Shown piece after piece: positions 20,677 through 34,634 of a stretch of 64,000 bases of DNA. Source of the DNA: Candidatus Coprovivens excrementavium (GTDB lineage Bacteria; Bacillota_I; Bacilli_A; RF39; UBA660). Both the position numbers and the translations under genes were made by a program. Each line of letters starts with the position of its first letter. Positions within the stretch are counted from its first letter, which is position 1. The stretch spans positions 186,001 to 250,000 of the forward strand of contig CALVVU010000002.1 in NCBI GenBank assembly GCA_944363975.1, given 5' to 3'. The notes beneath the pieces were generated by a model, which saw nothing but the letters and a program-made list of their open reading frames with translations, did not search any database and had not been told where the DNA came from.

Positions 20677-23241
20677 ATGAAGATGCTCGAACTAAAAAAA
20701 ATAACTAAAGTATATGAAGTAGCTGATAGTAAGCAAAAAGCTCTAAATAAAATTGATATAAAATTTCGTCAAAATGAATTTGTTTCAATTCTTGGTCCAA
20801 GTGGTAGTGGAAAAACAACTTTATTAAATATAATAGGTGGATTAGATAGTTATACTTCTGGAGATTTAATAATTAATGGAATCTCTACAAAAGAGTATTC
20901 CGATCGTGATTGGGATACTTATCGTAATCATCGTATTGGTTTTGTTTTTCAAAGTTATAATCTTATTCCTCACCAAACCGCTCTTCAAAATGTTGAACTA
21001 GCTTTAACTTTATCTGGTATTGGCAAAGAAGAACGTCGTAAAAAAAGTATTGCTGTATTAAAAAAAGTTGGCTTAGAAAAGCAAATGTATAAAAGACCGA
21101 ACCAAATGTCTGGTGGTCAGATGCAACGTATTGCCATAGCTCGTGCTTTAGTAAATGACCCCGATATTCTTCTTGCCGACGAACCAACCGGAGCTCTTGA
21201 CTCTGAAACAAGCTTACAAATCATGGATTTATTAAGTGAAATAGCTAAAGATCGTTTAGTTATTATGGTAACTCACAATCCCGAACTAGCTGTTAATTAT
21301 TCAACTCGTATCGTAAAACTTCTTGATGGTGAAATAATCGACGACTCTAATCCATTTAATGGCGAAGAAGAAATTACTGAACCTAAAAATAAAAAGAAGA
21401 AGACTTCTAAGACATCAATGAATTTCAAAACTGCCTTTTCTTTATCATTAAATAATCTTATGACTAAAAAAGGCCGTACATTTTTAACTGCCTTTGCTGG
21501 ATCAATCGGTATTATAGGTATTGCCTTAATCCTTTCTCTATCAAATGGTATTCAAGAGTACATCAATAAAACAGAAGAAGAAACTCTTAGTTCGTACCCT
21601 CTAACAATATCAAAAGAATCTGTTGATATGTCAGCTATGCTTGAAAGTTTAGCTGGTAATCAAGAGGTCGAGGAATATAATGACGATAAGATTCATTCAG
21701 TTAATATAATGGGTGATATCTTTACATCTATGACATCTGAGATTACTAAAAATAATACTAAAGATTTTAAAGAATATCTTGAAAGTGATAAAACTGATAT
21801 TAAGGATTATGTCTCAGATATTCAATATACTTACAATATTACAATGAATTTATATAAAAATGATTTAGATAAAATAACTAAAGTAAATCCAACAACAGTC
21901 TTTGATAGTATAGGCATGAATACCTCTGGAATCTCATCTGCTTATAATAGCTATCTATCAAACTATAACGTTTTCTATGAAATGCTTAATAATCAAGAAT
22001 TATTAGAACAACAATACGATCTTGTAGATGGTCGTTGGCCAACTAAGTACAATGAAGTAGTATTAACTGTTGATAAAAACAATCGAATATCTGATTATAC
22101 GTTATACAGTCTTGGAATATTAGATCAAGAAGAATTAAAAGAACAATTTAATAATATGACTACTGGTAAGGAAGTTAATTTCGAAAAAACTTCTTATACA
22201 ACCGATGAATTATTAAATTTATCATTTAAATTAGTTTTAAATACCGATTATTATAAAAAAGATCATGGTATATGGGTTAATATGTCCAATAATGAAAAAT
22301 ACATGCAAAATTTAATCGAAGAAGCTGAAGAAATAAAAATTGTCGGAATTATCAAACCAAATGAAGAAGCTGTAGTAGGAGGAAGTTCATATGGTATGGT
22401 TGGTTATACAAGTGAACTAACCGAGCATTTAATTAACAAAATAAATGAATCTGAAATAACTAAAGAACAACTAGCTAACCCTGAAATAAATGTCTTTACT
22501 GGAACTGAATTTTCAACTCAAACTAAGTTTGACATAAATAATTTAAGCAAAGAACAACTAGCTTATATTAAAAGTTTATCTCAAGAAGAATTAGCCGCTT
22601 ATATGCAGTCATATTCTGAGAATGCAACCTCAACATATGAAGAAAACTTATCATTATTAGGTATAGTCGATCTTGAAGAACCTGATGGAATAAAAATTTA
22701 TCCTAAAGACTTTGATTCCAAAGAAAATATAATTTCTATAATCGACAAATATAACGAAGACAAAGCTGAAGAAGAGCAAATTACTTACTCTGATATCGTA
22801 GGTCTTATGATGAGTTCAGTATCGACAATCGTTAATACTATCAGTAGTGTTTTAATAGCCTTTGTAGCTATTAGTTTAATCGTTTCATCAATTATGATTG
22901 CAATTATTACTTATATTTCTGTTATCGAAAGAACAAAAGAAATAGGAATTCTAAGAGCTATTGGTGCATCTAAAAAAGATATCTCCCGTGTCTTCAACGC
23001 TGAGACTCTTATTGAAGGATTATCTGCTGGAATCTTAGGAATTGTTGTCACTATTATTCTAAATATTCCAATAAATATAATAATTAAAAATGTTGTTAAT
23101 ATCAGCAATATAAGTCAACTACCTGTTATAGGAGCTATTATTCTTATTATAATAAGTGTTCTTTTAACTGTAATAGCTGGTTTCATTCCAGCCAAAATAG
23201 CTTCTAAAAAAGATCCAGTCGAAGCTCTTCGTACAGAATAG
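20677..23241 (+). CDS. ABC exporter, ATPase fused to FtsX-type permease (MacB-like)
   Basis: 854 residues in one chain. Residues about 4-225 are the ATPase: Walker A GPSGSGKTT, Q-loop VFQSYNLIP, signature SGGQMQ, Walker B ILLADEPTGALD. A basic linker (KNKKKKTSKTS) leads to the permease: one helix (about 270-290), a large extracellular part (about 300-700) and three helices (about 715-845) with the FtsX-family ERTKEIGILRAIGASKKDI region. MacB-like proteins export peptides or pull lipoproteins; with no outer membrane expected, the substrate is probably a peptide. A second ATG at 20683 is an alternative start. A terminator follows. Confidence 0.88.
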   Translation: MKMLELKKITKVYEVADSKQKALNKIDIKFRQNEFVSILGPSGSGKTTLLNIIGGLDSYTSGDLIINGISTKEYSDRDWDTYRNHRIGFVFQSYNLIPHQTALQNVELALTLSGIGKEERRKKSIAVLKKVGLEKQMYKRPNQMSGGQMQRIAIARALVNDPDILLADEPTGALDSETSLQIMDLLSEIAKDRLVIMVTHNPELAVNYSTRIVKLLDGEIIDDSNPFNGEEEITEPKNKKKKTSKTSMNFKTAFSLSLNNLMTKKGRTFLTAFAGSIGIIGIALILSLSNGIQEYINKTEEETLSSYPLTISKESVDMSAMLESLAGNQEVEEYNDDKIHSVNIMGDIFTSMTSEITKNNTKDFKEYLESDKTDIKDYVSDIQYTYNITMNLYKNDLDKITKVNPTTVFDSIGMNTSGISSAYNSYLSNYNVFYEMLNNQELLEQQYDLVDGRWPTKYNEVVLTVDKNNRISDYTLYSLGILDQEELKEQFNNMTTGKEVNFEKTSYTTDELLNLSFKLVLNTDYYKKDHGIWVNMSNNEKYMQNLIEEAEEIKIVGIIKPNEEAVVGGSSYGMVGYTSELTEHLINKINESEITKEQLANPEINVFTGTEFSTQTKFDINNLSKEQLAYIKSLSQEELAAYMQSYSENATSTYEENLSLLGIVDLEEPDGIKIYPKDFDSKENIISIIDKYNEDKAEEEQITYSDIVGLMMSSVSTIVNTISSVLIAFVAISLIVSSIMIAIITYISVIERTKEIGILRAIGASKKDISRVFNAETLIEGLSAGILGIVVTIILNIPINIIIKNVVNISNISQLPVIGAIILIIISVLLTVIAGFIPAKIASKKDPVEALRTE

Positions 23242-23263
23242 TGTTAATCACTATTCTTTTTTT
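23235..23263 (+). terminator. Terminator of the fused exporter
   Basis: AGAATAGTG (23235-23243) pairs with CACTATTCT (23249-23257), then T; the stop codon is in the left arm. Confidence 0.85.
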
Positions 23264-23369
23264 ATTTACATAGTATAATTATAAAATATCACATCAAACT
23301 AAAAATATAGATTGCTATTAAAAAATAAAAATTATATAATAAATATAAGATAGAAAAGAGTAGATTGTT

Positions 23370-23996
23370 ATGAGCCGTAAATTTATTTATTTAGTTGTTA
23401 TAATTACGACAATAGGTCTTGTTTTATATAGTGATTATCACCAAAAAGAAATTATTAATAATTCTTTATCTAATAAAGATGAAAATAGTGAAATAGTTAT
23501 AACTGATAGTTATAATAGTCTTGAAATACCATCTTCTTTAACAATTAAAAACTTTCAAAATGATGACGAAGAAATAATATATACATATCAATTATCACTA
23601 AGTGATATATCTGGCGCTTACTTATATGAATACAATGATAAAGAAAATTATCTTGTTTTCTCAGCTAATGGTCAAGCTCAAATAACTTTAAAAAGTAATG
23701 AATCTATAACTATTTATGATTTACCGAATAATACTAATTATAAAATCACCCAAGTTAATGATTTATCCAATAAATATACAACAACTGCTAATAATGAAAA
23801 TAAAACATCTTTAGAAGGAACAATTTCATACGATACAACAATTACTTTTGAAAATAAAACAATAGTTGATAAAACAGAATCTACCAAGAATCCATATACT
23901 TCTTCTAAACCAATAATTATCTTTATTATTATGTGTGTGTTATCAATTAGTATTTATAAAATAATTAAAAATATAAATATAAAACGTTATGAATAA
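23370..23996 (+). CDS. Isopeptide-pilin-like surface protein with sorting-type C-terminus
   Basis: 208 residues. An N-terminal hydrophobic segment (about 5-20) acts as signal or anchor. Residues about 45-165 follow the pattern of the streptococcal pilin isopeptide-linkage domain (FctA-like): IIYTYQLSLSDISG, then GQAQITLKSNESITIYDLPNNTNYKITQV, a G-I-Y-D-T strand and a closing TITFENKT. The end has NPYTS, a hydrophobic helix and the basic tail KIIKNINIKR, which looks like a sortase sorting signal of NPxT type, though no sortase is in the window. Next come a TasA/CalY-like gene and a SipW-type peptidase gene, suggesting a surface-fibre locus. Confidence 0.6.
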   Translation: MSRKFIYLVVIITTIGLVLYSDYHQKEIINNSLSNKDENSEIVITDSYNSLEIPSSLTIKNFQNDDEEIIYTYQLSLSDISGAYLYEYNDKENYLVFSANGQAQITLKSNESITIYDLPNNTNYKITQVNDLSNKYTTTANNENKTSLEGTISYDTTITFENKTIVDKTESTKNPYTSSKPIIIFIIMCVLSISIYKIIKNINIKRYE

Positions 23997-24019
23997 TAAC
24001 TTATTGCCAAAAATTTACT

Positions 24020-24047
24020 TTGTAATTTAATAAATCTCTTGTATAAT
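24020..24047 (+). promoter_or_regulatory. Promoter of the TasA-like gene
   Basis: TTGTAA (24020-24025) and TATAAT (24042-24047), 16-base spacer. The -10 box lies in the loop of a dyad, AATCTCTTG (24033-24041) with CAAGAGGTT (24055-24063). Confidence 0.55.
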
Positions 24048-24069
24048 AAAACATCAAGAGGTTTTTATT

Positions 24070-24573
24070 ATGAAAAAACAAATTCATATTTTAGAAGGTT
24101 TGATGATTATAACAATAATTGTTATAGCCTTTCTACTACTTATAAAATTTATCTATACTATTAATCACGAACAACTAGATACAAGTTACATGTGGAATAT
24201 TGATTTTAATAATCTTCAAATAATTGAAGGAAGTCAAAAAGGCGAATTAACTCTAGATAATAATAAAATAAACCTTGATGTAACATTAAAAAAAGAAGAA
24301 GAGTTTTTCTCTTTTACTATAGATACATCTAATAACGGATCTTTAGATGCTCAAATAAAAGATATCAATTTAAAAATAGACAATCCAACTAATATATTAA
24401 CTTATTCTATCTCATATCTTAATCAAGAACCAATTAATACTGGTGATATTTTAAAATCTCAAGAGACTAAAACTATTTTAGTTCGCATCTCGTATCCTAA
24501 ACAAAAAGATAAAATATATGATTCTCTTAATCTTAAATTATCATTAGATATCTCCTATACAGCAATATATTAA
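24070..24573 (+). CDS. TasA/CalY-like secreted protein (probable SipW substrate)
   Basis: 167 residues. One hydrophobic helix at residues about 10-32, then a beta-rich part with YMWNIDFNNLQIIEGSQKG and FFSFTIDTSNNGSLDAQI. The W-x-I-x-F-x-N...EGS and FxFxIDxxNxGxLDA patterns are those of the TasA/CalY (camelysin) family, which form biofilm fibres in Bacillus and are cut by the special signal peptidase SipW. A SipW-type gene is the next gene, which supports this. No catalytic motif is expected. The family call is by pattern only. Confidence 0.6.
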   Translation: MKKQIHILEGLMIITIIVIAFLLLIKFIYTINHEQLDTSYMWNIDFNNLQIIEGSQKGELTLDNNKINLDVTLKKEEEFFSFTIDTSNNGSLDAQIKDINLKIDNPTNILTYSISYLNQEPINTGDILKSQETKTILVRISYPKQKDKIYDSLNLKLSLDISYTAIY

Positions 24574-24626
24574 TTGTAATTAATTAGCAATTATTATATA
24601 ATCAATAGTAGGAGGATAGGGGATAA

Positions 24627-25775
24627 ATGAAAGAAAAGATAACCAAAAGTATACGAAGAACTCTATTAATTATAAATCTGTTAATTATATTTTATTCACT
24701 AATTATTTTTATCTTTAATCAGCATTTTAAAACGCTTATTCCAGCTTTAAATGTTGCTTTTTTCATGCTTCTAACTTTTTTCAGTATTCTCTTCCTTGGA
24801 TATAAAAAAAATAAACGCACTCGTGACAAAATTCATGTCCAAAATGTTTATATAGTCGTCTCAACCTTATATTTAATTACTATTTATTTAACTTCAAATG
24901 CAACTGGAACTATCAAAAACACCCTTAGTATTTTAAATATTATCTATTTAATTCTTTATATGATAATAAGTGAAATTGAACGTTACATTCTTTTAAACAA
25001 AGCAAATAAGAAAAATAATCAAGCTTATATAATAACATTTTCATATATTATTTTAGATATCTTAGTCTTATCATCATTAAATGATTCTAATATCTTATAT
25101 CTTAACAATTACTTCACCATTATTGTAATTGCTATTATCCGTAATTGTTTATTAAGCTACACATCATATAAGTTCGGTTTTTATCCATGCTTTATTTACT
25201 CTTTAATAACTTTCTTATTTCCACTTGTATTACCAATTTATCCTCATCTTGGAAATTATCTTACTATTATTTTCTTTGTTATTTATTCATTAATAATTTA
25301 CTATAATATTAGTAAACCTCTCCGTCAAGAAGACGAAGAAAATCTTAATAAATATAAAAGAAGTTCTCTTTTTTACATTGAACGTTTTTTATTAGTTTTT
25401 GTAATTATAATAATATTATTAGTATCTGGTAATTTCCGTTACTCAATTTCTGCTATTGCCTCAGATTCAATGTATCCTGAATTAAAAAGAGGAGATGCTG
25501 TAATAATCGAAAAAATAGATAAAACAAACATTTCCTCTTTAAAAAAAGGAATGATAGTTGCTTTTAAAGAAGAAGACGAAATAGTAACACATCGTATTTT
25601 GACTATCGAATTAATTGAGGGAAAAGAATACATTATTACAAAAGGAGATAATAATGACACAAAAGACGTTACAAAAAAAACAAAAGATGATATAATAGGT
25701 ATAGTAAGATTTAAAATACCACTAATAGGATATCCTTCTGTCGAGATATCTGATATAAAGAATAAAGAAGAATAA
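24627..25775 (+). CDS. SipW-type signal peptidase with extra N-terminal membrane domain
   Basis: 382 residues, about twice the length of SipW. Residues about 1-240 carry six to seven hydrophobic helices of unknown function. The last 130 residues are a signal peptidase of the ER/archaeal (S26B) type: a membrane helix (about 250-268), then ASDSMYPELKRGDAVII with the nucleophile Ser (about 281), EIVTHRIL with His (about 321) in the place where bacterial signal peptidases have Lys, and KGDNNDTKD. In Bacillus, SipW processes TasA and TapA. The TasA-like gene directly upstream is the likely substrate. Confidence 0.82.
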   Translation: MKEKITKSIRRTLLIINLLIIFYSLIIFIFNQHFKTLIPALNVAFFMLLTFFSILFLGYKKNKRTRDKIHVQNVYIVVSTLYLITIYLTSNATGTIKNTLSILNIIYLILYMIISEIERYILLNKANKKNNQAYIITFSYIILDILVLSSLNDSNILYLNNYFTIIVIAIIRNCLLSYTSYKFGFYPCFIYSLITFLFPLVLPIYPHLGNYLTIIFFVIYSLIIYYNISKPLRQEDEENLNKYKRSSLFYIERFLLVFVIIIILLVSGNFRYSISAIASDSMYPELKRGDAVIIEKIDKTNISSLKKGMIVAFKEEDEIVTHRILTIELIEGKEYIITKGDNNDTKDVTKKTKDDIIGIVRFKIPLIGYPSVEISDIKNKEE

Positions 25776-25790
25776 TAAGGAGTATGTCGT

Positions 25791-26771
25791 ATGCAAACAA
25801 ATAATAAAAAGACAATCACAATATGTTCAATTATCGCTTTAATTATCTTAGCTGTTGTAATTATTATTACATTAATTGCTGATTTAAAAGGTTTCACTCT
25901 TATTCTAGGCGCCTTATTTATTATTTTAACTATTTGTTTAAGTATCTATATTAAAGAAGAACCTGATGAGTATACAACTTTTATCAAAAACAAAAAAAGA
26001 ATTCTTCGTTTATATGATTCAATTATAGTTGAGGTAGAAGAAATACCTAATATAGCTGGTAAGAACATCATAAAAGTAAAATCAATTGAAGATCTAGTAG
26101 ATGCCCAATTAGAACTAAGAGAACCAATTTATTATAAAAATGATAATGACTCATGCTTTTTTATGCTACTTCATTATAACGAAGCTTGTATCTATATTTT
26201 AAAAATGAATGATAGTGTTATCTCGCCAACTGAACAATCAATTAGATATATGAAAGAAGACAATGAAAATAAAGAACAAGAACAAAGTATTCTTGATAAC
26301 ATTGAAAATACTATTGTTTATAAATTAGACGAACTAAGAAGTTTTAAAATATCTCCTATTCGTAATCAAGAAAAAATTGATGTTATTGACGATACTGCTA
26401 TTAAAGAAGAAATAGAGCATAATGCCGATGACAAACTTACTACTAAAGCTCTTGAAGAAGAAATATCAAAAACCATGTATATACGAGACTTAAAAGAGAA
26501 AATTAAACAATTCGAACAAGAAGAACAAGAAAAATCTAATTTTACTTTCGAAGATGAAAATGAACCAATATCAGAAGTTAATGTTGTAGTTGCTGAAGAT
26601 ACATCTTTATCTTTAAAAGAAAAAAAAGAATCTCCAGAAGAATCAAAACCAACAACTACTAAAAGTACTAAAAAAGTTAAGAAAACATCTAAAAAAGCTC
26701 CTAAAAAAGCAGTTCCTAAAAGACAAACTCATGCTAGTAGAAGAGCAGCCAAATATACATCTAAAAAATAA
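25791..26771 (+). CDS. Membrane protein with lysine-rich tail, function unknown
   Basis: 326 residues. Two adjacent hydrophobic helices (about 10-30 and 34-52) are followed by a long cytoplasmic part. That part holds a globular stretch (about 60-160, with IYYKNDNDSCFFMLLHYNEA), an acidic coiled-coil-like stretch (about 200-260) and a tail of about 40 residues made mostly of Lys, Thr, Ala and Pro (KKVKKTSKKAPKKAVPKR). The tail resembles histone H1-type or nucleic-acid-binding tails. It follows the SipW-type gene by 15 bases and is probably in the same transcript. A terminator covers its stop. No family recognised. Confidence 0.7.
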   Translation: MQTNNKKTITICSIIALIILAVVIIITLIADLKGFTLILGALFIILTICLSIYIKEEPDEYTTFIKNKKRILRLYDSIIVEVEEIPNIAGKNIIKVKSIEDLVDAQLELREPIYYKNDNDSCFFMLLHYNEACIYILKMNDSVISPTEQSIRYMKEDNENKEQEQSILDNIENTIVYKLDELRSFKISPIRNQEKIDVIDDTAIKEEIEHNADDKLTTKALEEEISKTMYIRDLKEKIKQFEQEEQEKSNFTFEDENEPISEVNVVVAEDTSLSLKEKKESPEESKPTTTKSTKKVKKTSKKAPKKAVPKRQTHASRRAAKYTSKK

Positions 26772-26782
26772 TAGATGTTTTT
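26757..26782 (+). terminator. Terminator over the stop of the lysine-tailed protein gene
   Basis: ACATCT (26757-26762) pairs with AGATGT (26773-26778), followed by T; short stem. Confidence 0.6.
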
Positions 26783-26806
26783 CTTATTTAAGAAGTAGGT
26801 GTAAGA

Positions 26807-27799
26807 ATGTTTAATAAAAATAACCAAATCGTTCATATTTTAAATAAAATATGTGATACTTTCAAATTAGGACAATTAATAGATTACAAAATTTCTAGTT
26901 TTCATAATCATCCAATATATGAAGTGATAACTAATTCAAATAAATACTATATAATAGAATATACTAAAAAAGATATTCCCAATCAAAATAAGATAAATTA
27001 TATAAAGCAACAAATAAGTATTATGAAAAAACTAAGTACTAATGGAGTACCAATAATTCTTCCTCTTAATTTCAATGATAAAAATATTATTAAATATCGT
27101 CAAAAATATTATTTAGTCTATGATTATCAAGAATATACAATTAAAGATTTTGCATCTCTAAACACTAAAACAATCAAAAAATTAGCTCATACTTTAGCCA
27201 TTATTCATAAACTAAGTATCAAATGCTCTTTATCTAATAACTACGAAGAATTAACTATTAATTTGCCTAAGTTATTAAAGAAATGTCAAAAAATAGATTC
27301 AACACTATATAATAATTTCTATAATAATTATTTTCTTCTTGAAGACTTAATAAAAAAAGTAAATGAAAATCTTAAATACTTAAATAATACTCTTTATATA
27401 AATTATAATAACTACTATTTAGATAATATTCTTTGGCAAAAAGATTATATGTATCTTGCTAACTTTGAATCAATTACTTTATCTAATCCTTTAGTATCAC
27501 TTGCTGATTGTGCTTTTTACTATTCCCAAAACAATAATCAAATAAATGAAGAATTTTATACTACCTTTATTAAAAGCTATTTAAAAAAATATGGTCCTTT
27601 AAAAAATGATTACAAAACAGCTCTTTATGTAGCTCCAATAAATGCTTTAAAAAAGTTGAATAATCTTCTTTTAAATACTACTAAAAAAGATAAAGAAAAT
27701 ATCTTATTAATAAACAATATCATAAATATATTATCCTTATACTATAATAATATAGAGAGATTTAATCAATTAAGTATATTAGCTGTCAAGAAACATTAA
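26807..27799 (+). CDS. APH/CotS-fold protein, probable pseudokinase
   Basis: 330 residues. The layout is that of aminoglycoside/choline/CotS-type kinases: an N-terminal beta-rich lobe with YYLVYDYQEYTIKDF (hinge), a helical region with LAHTLAIIHKLS, then the catalytic loop region. Where active enzymes have HGDxxxxN and a following IDFE, this protein has YNNYYLDN and ANFESI, then NPLVSLADCAFYY. So both catalytic aspartates appear to be Asn. This suggests a binding or scaffolding role rather than phosphotransfer. A perfect 16-base terminator stem follows. The fold call is fairly firm, the substrate is unknown. Confidence 0.65.
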   Translation: MFNKNNQIVHILNKICDTFKLGQLIDYKISSFHNHPIYEVITNSNKYYIIEYTKKDIPNQNKINYIKQQISIMKKLSTNGVPIILPLNFNDKNIIKYRQKYYLVYDYQEYTIKDFASLNTKTIKKLAHTLAIIHKLSIKCSLSNNYEELTINLPKLLKKCQKIDSTLYNNFYNNYFLLEDLIKKVNENLKYLNNTLYINYNNYYLDNILWQKDYMYLANFESITLSNPLVSLADCAFYYSQNNNQINEEFYTTFIKSYLKKYGPLKNDYKTALYVAPINALKKLNNLLLNTTKKDKENILLINNIINILSLYYNNIERFNQLSILAVKKH

Positions 27800-27843
27800 A
27801 AAAGAGTAAAATCAAAACCATGAACATTGATTTTACTCTTTTC
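27800..27843 (+). terminator. Strong terminator
   Basis: A perfect 16-base stem (27800-27815 with 27827-27842), A-rich then T-rich, with an 11-base loop. Confidence 0.85.
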
Positions 27844-27887
27844 TATAGATATACTTATTATGCAGGTATAAAGAAAGGAGTGCAAAA

Positions 27888-28610
27888 GTGAGTAGTAAAA
27901 AAAAGATTCTAACTATTATAATTATATCTCTTATTGTAATAGCAGTAGCTGCTATTACAATCAAACTAGTTGGCGATTTAAACAAAGAAACAACATTAAA
28001 AAACGAAGTCAAAGAAATAAGTAAATTTATGAATATTAATCAAAATGAGAATGATGAAATAAATGAAATTTTAACACGTCGTGAAATAACTAAAGGAAAA
28101 TATAAAAATATTGAAAATGATATTAAACAATACTATCAAGTAATATATAGCGATCTTCAAAATTTTTCTTTCCTAATTGATAATGATAACTTTAATATTT
28201 ATTTAAGTAGTGAAAATTTAAACGAAGATAAACCATCATTTATAAAATCCAAAGACAATCTTCAAAACACTAAAGCTCAAATTGATGAGTATTATAATAA
28301 ATTAATCAAAGAATTAAATGACGAATCTATTAAATTAAGTTTTATTACTGAAGCTCGTCTTGATAGTTATTATCGTAATTTCTATCTTGAACTAACATCT
28401 CTTGCGATATCAGATAATCTAAAAAAAGAACTAGATACCGCATATGAAGAAGTTCTTTCTAAGATAGAAATATATAATGAAGCTCTAGATTTCTTAGTTG
28501 CTAATAAAGGACATTGGGCTATTAAAAATAATGTAATTATCTTTGATGATACTATTTTATATGAAGGATATCTTGAAATAACCAATAAATTAGAAGTTAG
28601 TGAAAACTAA
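27888..28610 (+). CDS. Single-pass membrane protein of unknown function
   Basis: 240 residues, starting at a GTG 10 bases after AAAGGAG. One membrane helix (about 6-26) is followed by a mostly helical extracellular part rich in Asn, Glu and Leu, with coiled-coil-like stretches (about 35-75 and 110-200). The overall pattern (anchor plus helical repeats, hydrophobic end) resembles other small extracellular helical proteins of Firmicutes, but no family was recognised. A terminator covers the stop codon. Confidence 0.7.
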   Translation: MSSKKKILTIIIISLIVIAVAAITIKLVGDLNKETTLKNEVKEISKFMNINQNENDEINEILTRREITKGKYKNIENDIKQYYQVIYSDLQNFSFLIDNDNFNIYLSSENLNEDKPSFIKSKDNLQNTKAQIDEYYNKLIKELNDESIKLSFITEARLDSYYRNFYLELTSLAISDNLKKELDTAYEEVLSKIEIYNEALDFLVANKGHWAIKNNVIIFDDTILYEGYLEITNKLEVSEN

Positions 28611-28619
28611 CTTCTTTTG
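28592..28619 (+). terminator. Terminator over the stop of the 27888 gene
   Basis: AGAAGTTAG (28592-28600) pairs with CTAACTTCT (28607-28615), then T. The stop codon is in the right arm. Confidence 0.8.
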
Positions 28620-28673
28620 TCATTTATAAGTCATTTTAGTATAGTATGATGTACTCATGAAAGGAGTCCAAAT

Positions 28674-29345
28674 ATGGAAATTTTACGTGTTGATAATTTA
28701 ACAAAAATATATGGAAAGGGTGCTACTAAAGTAACTGCTTTAGATAACGTGTCATTATCTGTTGAAAAAGGCGAATTTGTTGCTATAGTTGGTGCATCTG
28801 GTAGTGGAAAATCAACCCTTTTACACTTAATAGGAGGAGTTGATCGTCCAACGAGAGGAAAAGTATTCATTGAAGGCAAAGATATTTATGCCATGGATGA
28901 TGAAACTCTTGCCATCTTCCGTCGTCGTCAAGTAGGTCTTATTTATCAGTTTTATAATCTTATTCCTATTCTAAATGTTGAAGAAAATATTACTTTACCA
29001 TTAGAACTAGATGGTCGCCAAGCTGATGAACAAGAATTAAACGAGCTCTTAAAAACTCTTGGCTTAAAGGAAAGAAGAAAACATCTTCCTAACGAATTAT
29101 CTGGTGGGCAACAGCAAAGAACATCTATTGGTCGTGCTATGATAACTCATCCAGCTATTATCTTGGCCGATGAACCAACTGGTAATTTAGATTCTAAATC
29201 AAGCGACGAAATTGTTGAATTACTTAAACTATCAAATAAAAAATATAAACAAACAGTCATCATGATTACCCATAATCTTGAAATTGCCGCTGCCGCTGAT
29301 CGTATCATAAAAATTGAAGATGGTCATATAGTTGAGGAGGATTAA
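28674..29345 (+). CDS. ABC exporter ATPase (LolD/SalX type)
   Basis: 223 residues. Walker A GASGSGKST (about 39-47), Q-loop YQFYNLIPILNVEENI, signature LSGGQQQRTSIGRAM, Walker [14 protein letters not shown] and H-loop ITHNLE. The family pairs with FtsX-type permeases and serves peptide export or antimicrobial peptide resistance. The partner is the 901-residue permease 2 bases downstream. AAAGGAG ribosome binding site upstream. A two-component system 3.4 kb downstream may control this pair, as with BceAB-type systems. Confidence 0.92.
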   Translation: MEILRVDNLTKIYGKGATKVTALDNVSLSVEKGEFVAIVGASGSGKSTLLHLIGGVDRPTRGKVFIEGKDIYAMDDETLAIFRRRQVGLIYQFYNLIPILNVEENITLPLELDGRQADEQELNELLKTLGLKERRKHLPNELSGGQQQRTSIGRAMITHPAIILADEPTGNLDSKSSDEIVELLKLSNKKYKQTVIMITHNLEIAAAADRIIKIEDGHIVEED

Positions 29346-29347
29346 TA

Positions 29348-32053
29348 ATGAACTTACTTAACAAATTAACCATTAAAAGCTTAAAACTAAACAAAAAAAG
29401 AACAATTGTAACTATTATCGGTATTATACTATCAGTCGCTTTAATTACTGCTGTAACAGCTTTATTCTTTAGCGCTAATGCCTCATTAATTAATTTTGAA
29501 ATTCGCCAAAAAGGCAATTACCATTATTCATTTAAAGAGGTTCCAATATCCGATATTAAAAACTTTACTAATAATCGTCACATTAATACTATTTATAAAA
29601 TAGCTAATATTGGTTATGCTAAACTAAGTAATAGTAAAAACGAAAACAAACCATATGCCTATATAAGAGCATTTGAAAAAGAAGCCTTATCTAATCTAGC
29701 TATTAATTTAGTATCCGGACGACTACCAGAAAATGATCAAGAAATTTTAATACCAACTCATTTAAAGACAAACGGTCGTATCACCTATGAAGTAGGGGAT
29801 ACCATTACTTTAGATGTTGGTAAAAGAGTAGATAGTGAAGGATATGAACTAACTCAAGACAATCCTTATTTCATTGAAGAAGATAATTCATCTGACTCAT
29901 CAGATGAACAAATAATTGATTCAACTACTAAGACATATAAAATAGTTGGAATTATTGAAAGACCAAGTAACAGTATCGAAAGTTATAGTGCTCCAGGATT
30001 TACATTTATTACTATTTTAAAAGATTATAAAGATTATCCAAAAGTAGATTTATATGTTAGATATGATAAAGAAGGATTAAAAGACCATGATATTATTACA
30101 GCCAATATTCTAGGTATTGATGAAAAACTATACACCAAATTTCAAAATGGTGAAATATATTCATCAGATAACTACGAAGAAGAACTAGAAAATATTCAAA
30201 ATGAACTAGATAAAGCTAAATATCAGTATGATTCTAATAATTATCTAATAATGTTAGAATCAGGTATTCTAAAAGAATCATCTATGCAATCACTAGCTCT
30301 TGTTGTTTTAGTTGTTATTATTATCATAATTGTTACTTCTGTTTTCTGTATAAAAAATAGTTTTGATATTTCTATAACTGAGAAAATCAAACAATATGGT
30401 ATGCTTGCTAGTATTGGAGCAACAAAAAAACAAATAAAAAAGAACGTTTACTATGAAGCTCTTATTCTCGCTTTAATAGGAATTCCACTTGGTATCATTT
30501 GTGGTCTTCTTGCATCCTATATTCTAATTATTATAAGTAATTACTTTTTAAAAGATATGATGAATCTTGGTTTGATTTTTAAATTTTCAATTTATCCCCT
30601 TATTATAGCCATTGTTTTAGGATTTGTAACAATTTTTCTTTCCGCTATGCGTAGTGCCAGAAGAGCATCTAAAATTAGCCCTATAACAGCAATTCGTAAT
30701 AGTGAAAATATCAAAATAAAAGCCAAAAAATTAAAATCTCCTCGATACATAAAGAAAATATTTGGTATCGGTGGCGATGTTTCATATAAAAACTTAAAAC
30801 GAAATCGTCAAAAATATCGTACTACAGTTATCTCTATTATAGTATGTGTTTCAGTATTTATAGCTTTATATTATTTCATTAATTTAGCTTTTGTATATAC
30901 ACAAAAAGAACTTAGTAGTAGTGAATATAACATTTCCCTTGATTACGATCTTGAAGATAATAAAGGTATAACAAGTAAAATAGATGAAATACTAACAGAT
31001 GATAGTATCAAAAACTATGCAATATCAAGAAATTCATATATCACAATCGAATCTTATAAAGCCAAATACAGTAAAGAATATCTAAAATACTATCCAGATA
31101 TTAACGATAAAGAAAAAACAAAATATACCTACGAAAACGAAGAAGGAAAAATAATAACAAATTATGAAGAAACATCTATTAGTATCGTTGCTATTGGAAA
31201 AAAGGCTTATAATGAGTACTTAAAATCTCTAAATCTATCATATGATGAAGCTAAAGATAAAGGAATTCTTATTAACTATGAAAAAGTAAGTGTTCTTGAA
31301 AACAATAAATCAGTTGAAAAGACATTATCTGTATATAATTATAACAAAGGAGACACTTTAAACTGGAATTTTGAAGGTGGAGATAAAACTCTAAATATTG
31401 AGCTAGTTAAAGTAACTAATAAATATCCATTTAGTTTAGAAAATATGAATTATAGTACTTTATTAATTATAAGTGATGAACTATATGATAAATTAGATTC
31501 AGATATAAAAGATTCTGTAAGTATTTACATCGACTCAGATAATGCTTCTAAACTTCAAGATGAAATAGATCTTATTTTAAAAGATTTTGACTATTCTTTA
31601 AATAACATCGAAGAAAATGTACGTATGATGGAATCATTTTATACCTTAATTGCCATCTTCTTATATGGATTTATTACCGTTATTGCTCTTATAGGAATAA
31701 CAAATATCTTTAATACTATAACAACTAATATGGAACTTCGTAGTCGTGAATTCGCCACTTTAAAAAGTATAGGTATGACAACAAAAGAATTTAATCGCAT
31801 GATTCGTTTAGAAAGTTTCTTTTATGGAACAAAGTCCTTAATCATTGGTATTCCAATAGGTTGTCTCCTTGCTTATATTATCTATAGACTTCTATCTGCT
31901 GATGATTCATCAATGTACTTTGAACTTCCATATCCAGCGATATTAATTACTATCATAGCTGTCTTCTTACTCATAGCTTGTATTATGAAATATTCAATTA
32001 ATAAGATTAATAAGCAAAATACAATCGAAACTATTCGCAATGAAAACATCTAA
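29348..32053 (+). CDS. FtsX-type ABC permease, large
   Basis: 901 residues. One helix near the start (about 20-40), a first extracellular part (about 45-305), three helices with an FtsX core (about 315-450, including YGMLASIGATKKQIKKNVYY), a helix at about 495-515, a second extracellular part (about 520-760) and a final set of helices (about 770-895, including EFATLKSIGMTTKEFNRMI). Two FtsX domains in one chain mean it may work as a monomeric permease with the ATPase upstream. The large outside parts suggest peptide sensing or export. A terminator covers the stop codon. Confidence 0.88.
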   Translation: MNLLNKLTIKSLKLNKKRTIVTIIGIILSVALITAVTALFFSANASLINFEIRQKGNYHYSFKEVPISDIKNFTNNRHINTIYKIANIGYAKLSNSKNENKPYAYIRAFEKEALSNLAINLVSGRLPENDQEILIPTHLKTNGRITYEVGDTITLDVGKRVDSEGYELTQDNPYFIEEDNSSDSSDEQIIDSTTKTYKIVGIIERPSNSIESYSAPGFTFITILKDYKDYPKVDLYVRYDKEGLKDHDIITANILGIDEKLYTKFQNGEIYSSDNYEEELENIQNELDKAKYQYDSNNYLIMLESGILKESSMQSLALVVLVVIIIIIVTSVFCIKNSFDISITEKIKQYGMLASIGATKKQIKKNVYYEALILALIGIPLGIICGLLASYILIIISNYFLKDMMNLGLIFKFSIYPLIIAIVLGFVTIFLSAMRSARRASKISPITAIRNSENIKIKAKKLKSPRYIKKIFGIGGDVSYKNLKRNRQKYRTTVISIIVCVSVFIALYYFINLAFVYTQKELSSSEYNISLDYDLEDNKGITSKIDEILTDDSIKNYAISRNSYITIESYKAKYSKEYLKYYPDINDKEKTKYTYENEEGKIITNYEETSISIVAIGKKAYNEYLKSLNLSYDEAKDKGILINYEKVSVLENNKSVEKTLSVYNYNKGDTLNWNFEGGDKTLNIELVKVTNKYPFSLENMNYSTLLIISDELYDKLDSDIKDSVSIYIDSDNASKLQDEIDLILKDFDYSLNNIEENVRMMESFYTLIAIFLYGFITVIALIGITNIFNTITTNMELRSREFATLKSIGMTTKEFNRMIRLESFFYGTKSLIIGIPIGCLLAYIIYRLLSADDSSMYFELPYPAILITIIAVFLLIACIMKYSINKINKQNTIETIRNENI

Positions 32054-32068
32054 CTATTAGATGTTTTT
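32044..32068 (+). terminator. Terminator of the large permease
   Basis: AAACATCTAA (32044-32053) pairs with TTAGATGTTT (32057-32066); loop of 3 bases, T run. The stop codon is at the stem end. Confidence 0.8.
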
Positions 32069-32122
32069 CTTATAGTATAATAATAAAGATTATGTTATAT
32101 TATAAATAAGATAGGTGATACT

Positions 32123-32716
32123 ATGAAAAATAAAATTATTAATATAATTAATAAACTCTTAAAAAGAAGAATAACTATTAAATATAATCTAAGTAATAAC
32201 TTTACTCGTTGTTATAATGAAGCTTATGGAATAGCAAGCCATCGCAACAAATATTTGAAAAATCCTCAATCTAAAATTCATTCCTATACCTATTATGGCT
32301 TTATTTACTTATGGCTTGCTATTGTCTATAATCTTCTAACATGTTTACTATATAAACTCATTGGTTACAATACTTTTATTTGCTTTTTATGTTGTTTAAT
32401 GCATATCATTAACTTTATCGTAGTTCTATACTTTATTTACTATCTATTACGTTTAATGATTTCTAAACAACGTAAGATAAAAGGTTCTTTTATTTTAGAT
32501 AAAAAAGGTTTAATAGATAGTACCTTTAAAGGTATTAAGATTCTCTTCGAATGGTCAAAGATAAAAGTAGTTATCATTGGTAAACATAGTATCACAATAT
32601 TAACAGATACTCCTATATACTTTTTTGTTAATCGTGATTTAGAATCAACTTTAATACCAGCTTTAAAAACATATAATAAAGATATTCTTATTATCAAAAA
32701 TCAAAAAGTCATTTAA
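32123..32716 (+). CDS. YcxB-like membrane protein
   Basis: 197 residues. Two hydrophobic helices (about 58-80 and 86-112) and a C-terminal cytoplasmic part of the YcxB-like pattern: GSFILDKKGLIDSTFKGIKILFEWSKI then IYFFVNRDLES. YcxB-like proteins are common small membrane proteins of Firmicutes with no defined function. The gene lies between the ABC pair and the two-component system. Its last codons overlap a direct repeat that belongs to the regulator's promoter region. Confidence 0.65.
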   Translation: MKNKIINIINKLLKRRITIKYNLSNNFTRCYNEAYGIASHRNKYLKNPQSKIHSYTYYGFIYLWLAIVYNLLTCLLYKLIGYNTFICFLCCLMHIINFIVVLYFIYYLLRLMISKQRKIKGSFILDKKGLIDSTFKGIKILFEWSKIKVVIIGKHSITILTDTPIYFFVNRDLESTLIPALKTYNKDILIIKNQKVI

Positions 32717-32758
32717 AAGTCATCTTTTAATAGTATAATAGAACTATATAGTTCTATT
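32704..32758 (+). promoter_or_regulatory. Putative operator and promoter of the two-component genes
   Basis: AAAAGTCAT occurs twice, at 32704 and 32715 (11-base period), the arrangement OmpR-family regulators bind. A TATAAT box is at 32734-32739. A 22-base perfect palindrome centred on AACTATATAGTT lies at 32737-32758. The palindrome may be an operator or a terminator stem, because a T-rich run follows. Confidence 0.5.
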
Positions 32759-32776
32759 TTTATATGGGGTGATTTT

Positions 32777-33436
32777 ATGAAAATACTATTAGTAGAAGAT
32801 GATCAAGATATTGCCAATAACTTAAAATATCTTCTTGAACAAGAAAACTACCAAGTAGAAATATCATCTAACTATCAAGACGCGAAAAATAAAATCTATC
32901 ATAATGAATATGATTTATATATTTTAGATATTTCTCTACCTGATGGTAATGGCAATCAATTATATCAGAAATTAATAAAAGATTTAGAAAAACCAACTAT
33001 TTTTTTAACTGCTAAAGACGAAGAAGAAACAATTGTTTCTTGTCTTGAATCAGGAGCTGAAGATTATATAACTAAACCATTTTCTTCAAAAGAATTACTA
33101 GTTCGTATCAAAAAGATTATCGCTCGTTACAAGAAAAATAATCTTATTAAAGTTAAAGATATAACTTTTGATCTTGATAAAATGGTTGTCTTCAAAAATG
33201 GTGATGTCATTAATTTAACTAGTTTAGAATTAAAAATATTTTATCTTTTAATCTCCCAAATAAATAAAGTAGTTACAAGAGAATCGATTATTGAAAATAT
33301 CTGGGACTGGACTGGTAATGACGTTAATGATAATACAGTAACAGTTTATCTAAAAAGAATTAGAGAGAAACTTGATAGTGATATTATAACTACTGTCAAA
33401 GGTATCGGCTATAGGATAGATTATCATGAAGAATAA
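32777..33436 (+). CDS. OmpR-family response regulator
   Basis: 219 residues. Receiver domain with the acidic pair in LLVEDDQD, phosphoacceptor Asp51 in LYILDISLPDG, Thr in FLTAKD and Lys in YITKPF. The C-terminal winged helix has LTSLELKIFYLLI, VTRESIIENIWDW and VTVYLKRIREKL. It controls transcription when phosphorylated by its sensor, whose gene overlaps its end by 11 bases. Likely targets are its own promoter and the ABC exporter upstream, by analogy with Bce/Gra systems. Confidence 0.93.
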   Translation: MKILLVEDDQDIANNLKYLLEQENYQVEISSNYQDAKNKIYHNEYDLYILDISLPDGNGNQLYQKLIKDLEKPTIFLTAKDEEETIVSCLESGAEDYITKPFSSKELLVRIKKIIARYKKNNLIKVKDITFDLDKMVVFKNGDVINLTSLELKIFYLLISQINKVVTRESIIENIWDWTGNDVNDNTVTVYLKRIREKLDSDIITTVKGIGYRIDYHEE

Positions 33437-34634
33437 TACCAAGTTTGCTGTTTTTTCATCTATAATTATCAGTCTCCTTTTTCTTTCTCTTTTTATAATA
33501 TCTAATTATCATTTCAGACAACAATATCAAACAACTAATAATCTTTTACTATCATCTCTTATTAATAAAATAAAAACTACATATCCAGAATTATCTGAAA
33601 TAGAAATAATCGAAGTTCTAAATAATCCCGATTTAACTGAAGAAGATCTATTTAAAAAATATGGCATTAATATTCAAAATGAATCTCTTAGTATTAAACA
33701 ACAAAATCTTAATAACCAATATTTTCTTTTTACCATTATTTCTATTCTTATGTATTCTTTAACAATTATTCTAATCATTATTATCTATAATAAAAAAGAA
33801 AAAGCTAAAATAAATAAAATAACTAATTATTTAAAAGAACTAAATAACCATCAATATTCATTAGCTATCGAAGACAATCAAGAAGAAGATTTATCTCTCC
33901 TAAAAAATGAAATCTATAAAACAGCCATCACTTTAAATGAACAGACTCTTTTATTAAAAAAAGATAAAGAATCATTAAAAGATTCTTTATCAGATATCTC
34001 TCATCAATTAAAAACCCCTTTAACATCTATTAATTTAATGATAGATACTTTAAGACATCAAGACAATCTTTCGTCCACGGAAAGAAGAGAATTACTAAAT
34101 AATATTCATCGCAAAATAACTAATACTAACTTTTTAGTTCACTCATTATTAAAATTATCTAAATTTGATGCTAATACTATTGAATTTAATCGTCAAAATA
34201 ATTCACTAAGTAAAATTCTAAAAGACGTATTAGATAATCTTTCTACTTTAAGTGATTTAAAAGATATAAAAATTAATATTAAAGGTTCTAAAGATATATC
34301 CTTATACTGTGATTATAAATGGGAAGTAGAAGCCCTAACTAATATAATTAAAAATTGTATTGAACACTCAAATAACTCTTCTAAAATAGATATTACCTAT
34401 CAAAAAAATGATATCTTTACTAAAATAATTATTCAAGATAATGGATGTGGTATATCTAAAAAAGATTTACCTCACATCTTTGAACGTTTCTATAAAGCTC
34501 AAAATTCTTCTAAAGATAGTATAGGTATAGGTCTATCTTTAGCTAAAACAATAATCGAAAAAGATAATGGTTATATAACAGTCGATTCAGTTATTAATAA
34601 AGGTACAACATTTACTATTAAATATCTAAAATAA
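33426..34634 (+). CDS. Sensor histidine kinase
   Basis: 402 residues. Two membrane helices (about 8-27 and 98-120) flank an extracellular part of about 70 residues. The kinase core has the H-box SDISHQLKTPLTS (His about 193), N-box IIKNCIEHSNNS, G1 DNGCGISKKDL, F-box IFERFYKA, and G2 GIGLSLAKTII. No clear HAMP domain. The outside loop is longer than in the intramembrane-sensing BceS type, so it may bind a ligand directly. It overlaps the regulator gene and is co-transcribed with it. Confidence 0.92.
   Translation: MKNNTKFAVFSSIIISLLFLSLFIISNYHFRQQYQTTNNLLLSSLINKIKTTYPELSEIEIIEVLNNPDLTEEDLFKKYGINIQNESLSIKQQNLNNQYFLFTIISILMYSLTIILIIIIYNKKEKAKINKITNYLKELNNHQYSLAIEDNQEEDLSLLKNEIYKTAITLNEQTLLLKKDKESLKDSLSDISHQLKTPLTSINLMIDTLRHQDNLSSTERRELLNNIHRKITNTNFLVHSLLKLSKFDANTIEFNRQNNSLSKILKDVLDNLSTLSDLKDIKINIKGSKDISLYCDYKWEVEALTNIIKNCIEHSNNSSKIDITYQKNDIFTKIIIQDNGCGISKKDLPHIFERFYKAQNSSKDSIGIGLSLAKTIIEKDNGYITVDSVINKGTTFTIKYLK

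Follow-up and report, generated by a model that had tools for sequence, protein, structure and literature searches.

The window, as we call the whole 64-kb stretch of DNA analysed here, carries a cassette of four genes on the forward (+) strand. Gene 1 (23370..23996) encodes a protein of 208 aa with an N-terminal hydrophobic segment, a DUF7601 pilin-like domain (residues 60-163) and a sortase-type tail, whose NPYTS sorting-type motif can be read from the sequence at 23889..23903. It is followed by gene 2 (24070..24573), for a 167-aa TasA-like protein with a hydrophobic helix at about residues 5-31, then a predicted beta sandwich, and without the motif [GSATV][YFW][AS], and by gene 3 (24627..25775), for a SipW-type signal peptidase of 382 aa composed of a polytopic membrane domain (24627..25376, about residues 1-250) and a SipW/archaeal-type signal peptidase domain (25386..25742, residues 254-372) with S281, H322 and D341. 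The original prediction had the order and coordinates of these three open reading frames (23370-25775, all +) right and ended the locus there, missing gene 4 (25791..26771), which encodes a 326-aa DUF5305-type protein of a short form that lacks the ectodomain and has a basic C-terminal tail. Two further genes on the + strand, for a kinase-like protein of 330 aa (26807..27799, matching PRK11768 with E 1.5e-7) and a membrane protein of 240 aa (27888..28610), probably belong to the same transcription unit; their membership in the cassette is doubtful, and they adjoin it only in the window genome and in one relative, G004.

The region 23370-28610 is bracketed by terminator-like hairpins on the + strand, one at 23235..23257 that closes the upstream ABC-transporter gene and presumably marks the left edge of the transcription unit, and one at 28592..28615 that presumably marks the right edge. 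No terminator-like site was found between 23370 and 28610, and three such sites were found in all against 0.8 expected. A promoter-like site on the + strand (TTGCTA-17-TATAAT, 23312..23340) precedes gene 1, although such matches are common here (62 found against 48.1 expected) and make weak evidence. Rfam gave no match anywhere in the 64-kb window. Compared with the orthologues in G004, dN/dS amounts to 0.29, 0.28, 0.10 and 0.12 for genes 1, 2, 3 and 4, and purifying selection acts on all four. Amino acid identity to G004 changes from 58-87% (dS 0.6-1.5) upstream to 98-100% from 28674 on, with dS around 0.06 downstream of the jump in the two genes measured (window 28650-34634 against 12055-18001 of L037); judging from these sequence comparisons, the jump probably reflects recent recombination or between-species transfer.

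Loci for comparison were picked by SipW similarity alone across 59 relative genomes, and 46 near-full-length SipW matches, one contig-edge fragment and the window itself made up a set of 48. Of the 45 loci having an upstream gene, 38 (31/38 + 7/7) have a TasA-like gene immediately before SipW, and 40/48 loci (35/41 + 5/7) have a DUF5305 gene immediately after it. Some of the same loci went into our profiles A2 and A3, while Pfam provides an independent count for DUF5305, which it finds in 35 of 41 downstream neighbours. Recurrence across dozens of loci rules out a chance neighbourhood, and we are highly confident both of the gene identities and of the trio of TasA-like protein, polytopic SipW and DUF5305 protein as the conserved core. 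The conserved neighbourhood that the original prediction had proposed to look for in relatives thus exists for these three genes, but the sortase substrate is part of it in only 4 of the 48 loci. Within the set, the SipW proteins of the window, G004, G008, G006, G010, G014 and G011 form one clade (support 100/100). The TasA-like gene is visible in five of the seven window-type loci, the other two being cut by contig ends. At two of the window-type cassettes, in G006 and G014, small putative WXG100-like proteins are encoded downstream (L039 19-1634; L041 5443-7064), and a metallophosphoesterase-like gene lies between the TasA-like and SipW genes. Elsewhere in the set, giant proteins of 1716-2844 aa, several of these lengths being cut by contig or region ends, are encoded a few genes from the trio (L049, L051, L060, L061, L065 and L068) and are possibly tip adhesins.

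Gene 1 matches the Pfam family DUF7601 (E 2.2e-13, 51.2 bits, cut-off 27), and its four-sequence profile finds the streptococcal pilins T18.1 (E 3.3e-7) and AP1 (E 2.2e-6) in the PDB. The complete sorting signal of motif, hydrophobic stretch and basic tail is present in all four homologues, gene 1 among them. Of the earlier description as an FctA-like domain with an NPYTS end, the pilin-like character and the tail therefore stand, but the Pfam FctA model does not match gene 1. The designation as an isopeptide pilin is not supported: in the alignment to pilin structures, the position of the Glu, which we take to be the isopeptide-triad residue in pilins, is occupied by Gln or Val in 4/4 DUF7601 homologues and that of the Lys by Gln in the G004 protein, and the Lys-Asn-Glu triad is not conserved among the four window-type DUF7601 proteins. 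The AF2 model of gene 1 (pLDDT 40.6) is too low in confidence for use.

A sortase substrate beside a TasA/SipW-type locus, as originally claimed, does occur in four related genomes (the window genome G000, G004, G008 and G014), where the DUF7601 homologues are kept beside the cassette at 29-65% identity. In G008, the DUF7601 gene immediately precedes SipW and no TasA-like gene intervenes, and G011 and G006 show no DUF7601 gene at their window-type loci as far as the contigs reach. In G031, an NPNTSD-tailed protein unrelated to gene 1 adjoins the trio in the same place. The sortase substrate is thus a lineage-limited addition outside the conserved core. NPxT motifs fit class B sortases, and the genome search suggested by the original prediction yielded three sortases, two of which are class B (TIGR03064, over the curated cut-off). 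An NPNTSD protein is encoded about 2.2 kb away from one of the two, and the other adjoins a VPDTG protein. There is no sortase within the 64-kb window and no dedicated pilus sortase at the locus, the nearest being about 71 kb away.

Gene 2 itself has no Pfam or NCBIfam match beyond chance, and it is homologous to the ordinary TasA-like SipW neighbours of relatives (BLAST, e.g. E 9e-13). The 34 TasA-like neighbours give weak, mixed family matches (Pfam M73 in 2/34, NF046066 TasA in 1/34), and a profile of 15 of these proteins matches AbpX, a donor-strand archaeal bundling pilin, in the PDB (E 0.003 and 0.0042); the other matches listed look like chance. Through such intermediate homologues, the sequence places gene 2 in the TasA/CalY family. 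Its AF2 model (pLDDT 83.7) predicts one helix (residues 2-33) and, after it, a beta sandwich that aligns with the TasA fibre 8aur over 115 residues (Z 6.4, 3.1 A) at rank 22 among unrelated sandwiches; the best Foldseek matches are adaptin ear domains, and AbpA and AbpX are absent among the structure matches listed. VIA and Foldseek give no specific fold match, TasA being tied with unrelated beta sandwiches, so that the modelled fold is compatible with TasA and not diagnostic of it. In 28/34 TasA-like neighbours the hydrophobic segment ends in [GSATV][YFW][AS], the SipW cleavage motif that is absent in 5/5 window-type proteins (the window and four relatives); the sixth protein without it, from the second of the copies in L051, contains a long linker. 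Of the TasA/CalY-like secreted protein first proposed, homology upholds the family, but the missing motif makes the reading as a secreted fibre protein doubtful. TIGR04088, the model for the SipW signal, has matches in 14/59 relative genomes and does not see the signals of this family, since among the window-type genomes only G010 is matched.

The assignment of gene 3 as a SipW-type peptidase is confirmed by TIGR02228 (82.6 bits, cut-off 51.85) and by the Ser, His and Asp residues, but the large extra membrane domain had gone unmentioned: the signal peptidase domain is fused to an N-terminal polytopic domain of about 240 residues. SEC11 is the closest PDB match (11-sequence profile, E 9.7e-18), and gene 3 is no equivalog of the Bacillus SipW, as it scores 58.6 bits with NF046067, below the cut-off of 190. 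No Pfam family matches the polytopic domain consistently across the SipW members, and an identity as AgrB was rejected, a weak match being limited to 1/40 members. Among the aligned SipW rows, this domain has E116 in 40/40, R119 in 39/40 and P206 in 41/41, and the catalytic S281, H322 and D341 are each present in 39/41. Ser to Ala and His to Asp changes at the active site occur in 2/41 rows each, and it is possible from these substitutions that 2/41 polytopic SipW copies are inactive. Among the matches listed, full-length polytopic SipW is found in 8/17 genomes of the same family and in 1/132 other genomes of the class; that of gene 3 is the only one in the window genome.

Gene 4 matches Pfam DUF5305 with 41.5 bits (cut-off 29), and its residues 36-125 cover positions 119-209 of the 217 in the model. 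According to alignment A3, the ectodomain is missing from gene 4 and from the window-type DUF5305 proteins, which carry a long, conserved basic tail that is predicted to be cytoplasmic. Short forms are also found in other clades, alongside ordinary TasA-like proteins. With DUF5305 as the starting point, a search of the window's own genome and 149 others of the class returned 18 matches, 13 of which adjoin SipW; the other five comprise one near a sortase/pilin cluster (L104), one at a contig end (L108), L095, and two without a link (L100 and L107). At L104 (7868-12176), the DUF5305 gene is three genes away from a sortase-like gene and an apparent pilin whose tail reads VPDTASG. In L098, from MAG G118, SipW adjoins a full DUF5305 protein (158 bits) on a contig of 60.5% GC with haloarchaeal-looking neighbours, probably a contaminant contig in a MAG placed in the window's class. 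Because of this haloarchaeal look, the SipW-DUF5305 pairing seems to be present in archaea too. The word "DUF5305" occurred in no paper of the literature searched.

The same genome holds other genes of fibre type. TasA-like genes with an S-Y-S site each are located on contig C7 at about 15.2 kb and on contig C3 at about 220.0 kb, and both have counterparts in G004. Next after the latter comes a gene for a full-length DUF5305 protein, and SipW is absent (L095 7013-8681, C3 about 220-221.7 kb), an arrangement conserved in G004 (L129). Further on C3, at about 34-48 kb (L096 5499-17700), a second SipW-type cluster contains three short SipW-like peptidase genes, two matching TIGR02228 and one weakly, along with proteins whose signals end in SYA (one SSYA) or TYAWF/MAWF.

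The locus might be a derived TasA/SipW-type surface-fibre module in which the TasA-like protein of the window is a membrane-tethered anchor, a reading that we adopt tentatively and rate at slightly less than an even chance, with the tethered-anchor mechanism taken by itself a shade below that. We infer that the polytopic SipW would reside in the membrane and cut SipW-type signal peptides, its likely substrates being the TasA-like proteins of C7 and C3 with their S-Y-S-type sites, while the window's own TasA-like protein, having lost its cleavage motif, would be held in the membrane by its N-terminal helix. In B. subtilis, the signal peptide of TasA is cleaved off, freeing the donor strand (residues 28-38) directly after it, as reported in the accessible part of PMC9674648, and because the strand is freed by this removal an uncleaved protein would have none to donate. 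Its beta sandwich may still accept one, so that the protein might act as membrane anchor or terminator of a putative fibre. The DUF5305 protein could form a membrane hairpin with a cytoplasmic domain and serve as partner or platform of SipW, and the DUF7601/NPYTS protein, which a class B sortase would attach to the wall, may keep the fibre in place or steer it. A new fibre type in the form first put forward is a different matter and is not supported, as the sortase substrate falls outside the core and the TasA-like protein has no cleavage motif. Several points also count against the anchor reading: the TasA structure match is unspecific, the DUF7601 gene is missing from 44/48 loci, the sortases are distant, and the short SipW-like peptidases encoded elsewhere could serve the other TasA-like proteins.

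An ordinary TasA/CalY locus, whose own SipW would cleave the window protein at an atypical position so that it is released and polymerises by donor-strand exchange as in Bacillus, would account for the placement of gene 2 immediately before an intact SipW gene, an order shared with most relatives. A candidate cut after A20 (V-I-A) would fall at a small residue midway along the hydrophobic segment; A20 precedes the conserved Trp by 21 residues, compared with about 18 from the usual cut to that Trp in L043. However, the hydrophobic segment runs on for about 10 residues past A20, the model has a single helix across residues 2-33, and the motif usual in homologues has been lost from every window-type protein, which leaves this alternative unlikely. 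Somewhat less improbable is that the DUF7601/NPYTS gene is a mere neighbour, whose product reaches the wall through a class B sortase and has no working link to the trio. Its rarity among the loci and absence at G011 and G006, a dN/dS above that of SipW and the far-off sortases all fit such an arrangement, yet the gene has stayed beside the cassette in four genomes despite considerable divergence, no terminator-like site separates it from the trio, and a different NPNTSD protein occupies the same place in G031.

A more radical departure would be that this is not a fibre system but a unit for membrane-protein processing or sensing, in which SipW and the cytoplasmic domain of the DUF5305 protein act on other substrates. 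The loss of the ectodomain and gain of a conserved basic cytoplasmic tail in window-type DUF5305 proteins would suit such a role, as would the invariant E116 and P206 in the polytopic domain. We consider it distinctly improbable, given that the trio is centred on TasA-like proteins in most relatives and that SipW/TasA loci form fibres in Bacillus and Clostridium, as described in the available parts of PMC9674648 and PMC7395162.

The start, the end and the cell attachment of TasA-type fibres are poorly understood. DUF5305, which accompanies SipW in gut Bacilli as well as on a contig of archaeal appearance, offers a specific candidate for the membrane partner still missing from the picture, and the role of anchor would come naturally to a member of the TasA family retaining its membrane helix. 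The anchor idea can be tested by setting loci that have the cleavage motif against loci that do not. Moreover, annotators gain a name for a recurrent surface-gene cluster of uncultured gut Bacilli. The preferred anchor reading can be extended to a joint one, in which DUF5305 is an undescribed cross-domain partner of SipW/TasA fibres, the uncleaved TasA-like protein a tethered acceptor and gene 1 a wall protein of a class B sortase; all of this together seems unlikely to hold, and if true it would describe a fibre built from donor strands, clamped covalently to the wall, with its subunits encoded elsewhere.

Among known systems, the tapA-sipW-tasA operon of B. subtilis likewise places a SipW-type peptidase beside a TasA-type beta-sandwich protein, but DUF5305 is not found there; to our knowledge the operon has no sortase substrate, and its SipW is presumably small and not polytopic. 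TasA of B. subtilis is cleaved, whereas the TasA-like protein of the window has no cleavage motif. Assembly of TasA/CalY in B. cereus is sortase-independent, as far as the accessible text of PMC13082335 goes. The combination of a sortase-related gene with a TasA-type system, originally called unusual, has a precedent in C. perfringens, where the sipW-bsaABCRSD locus couples SipW with a fibre-forming TasA-like protein and the sortase gene srtB, which is dispensable, adjoins just upstream of sipW-bsaA (PMC7395162, in part). There, however, the neighbour is the sortase itself and not a sortase substrate as in the window, and the bsa locus has the regulators bsaR and bsaS, unlike the window locus. 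Streptococcal pilins (T18.1, AP1, Spy0128) and DUF7601 proteins resemble gene 1 in their domain and sortase-type tail, but gene 1 is without the conserved isopeptide Glu/Lys, has a single domain of about 100 residues and is accompanied by no pilus-type sortase at the locus. The archaeal bundling pili (AbpA, AbpX), donor-strand fibres according to the consulted portion of PMC11952670, share with the window the match of the TasA-like profile to AbpX and the SipW-DUF5305 pairing on a haloarchaeal-looking contig, and differ in being archaeal and in having no sortase substrate. Finally, in archaeal threads, donor strands are combined with isopeptide links, as stated in the part of PMC9715654 available to us.
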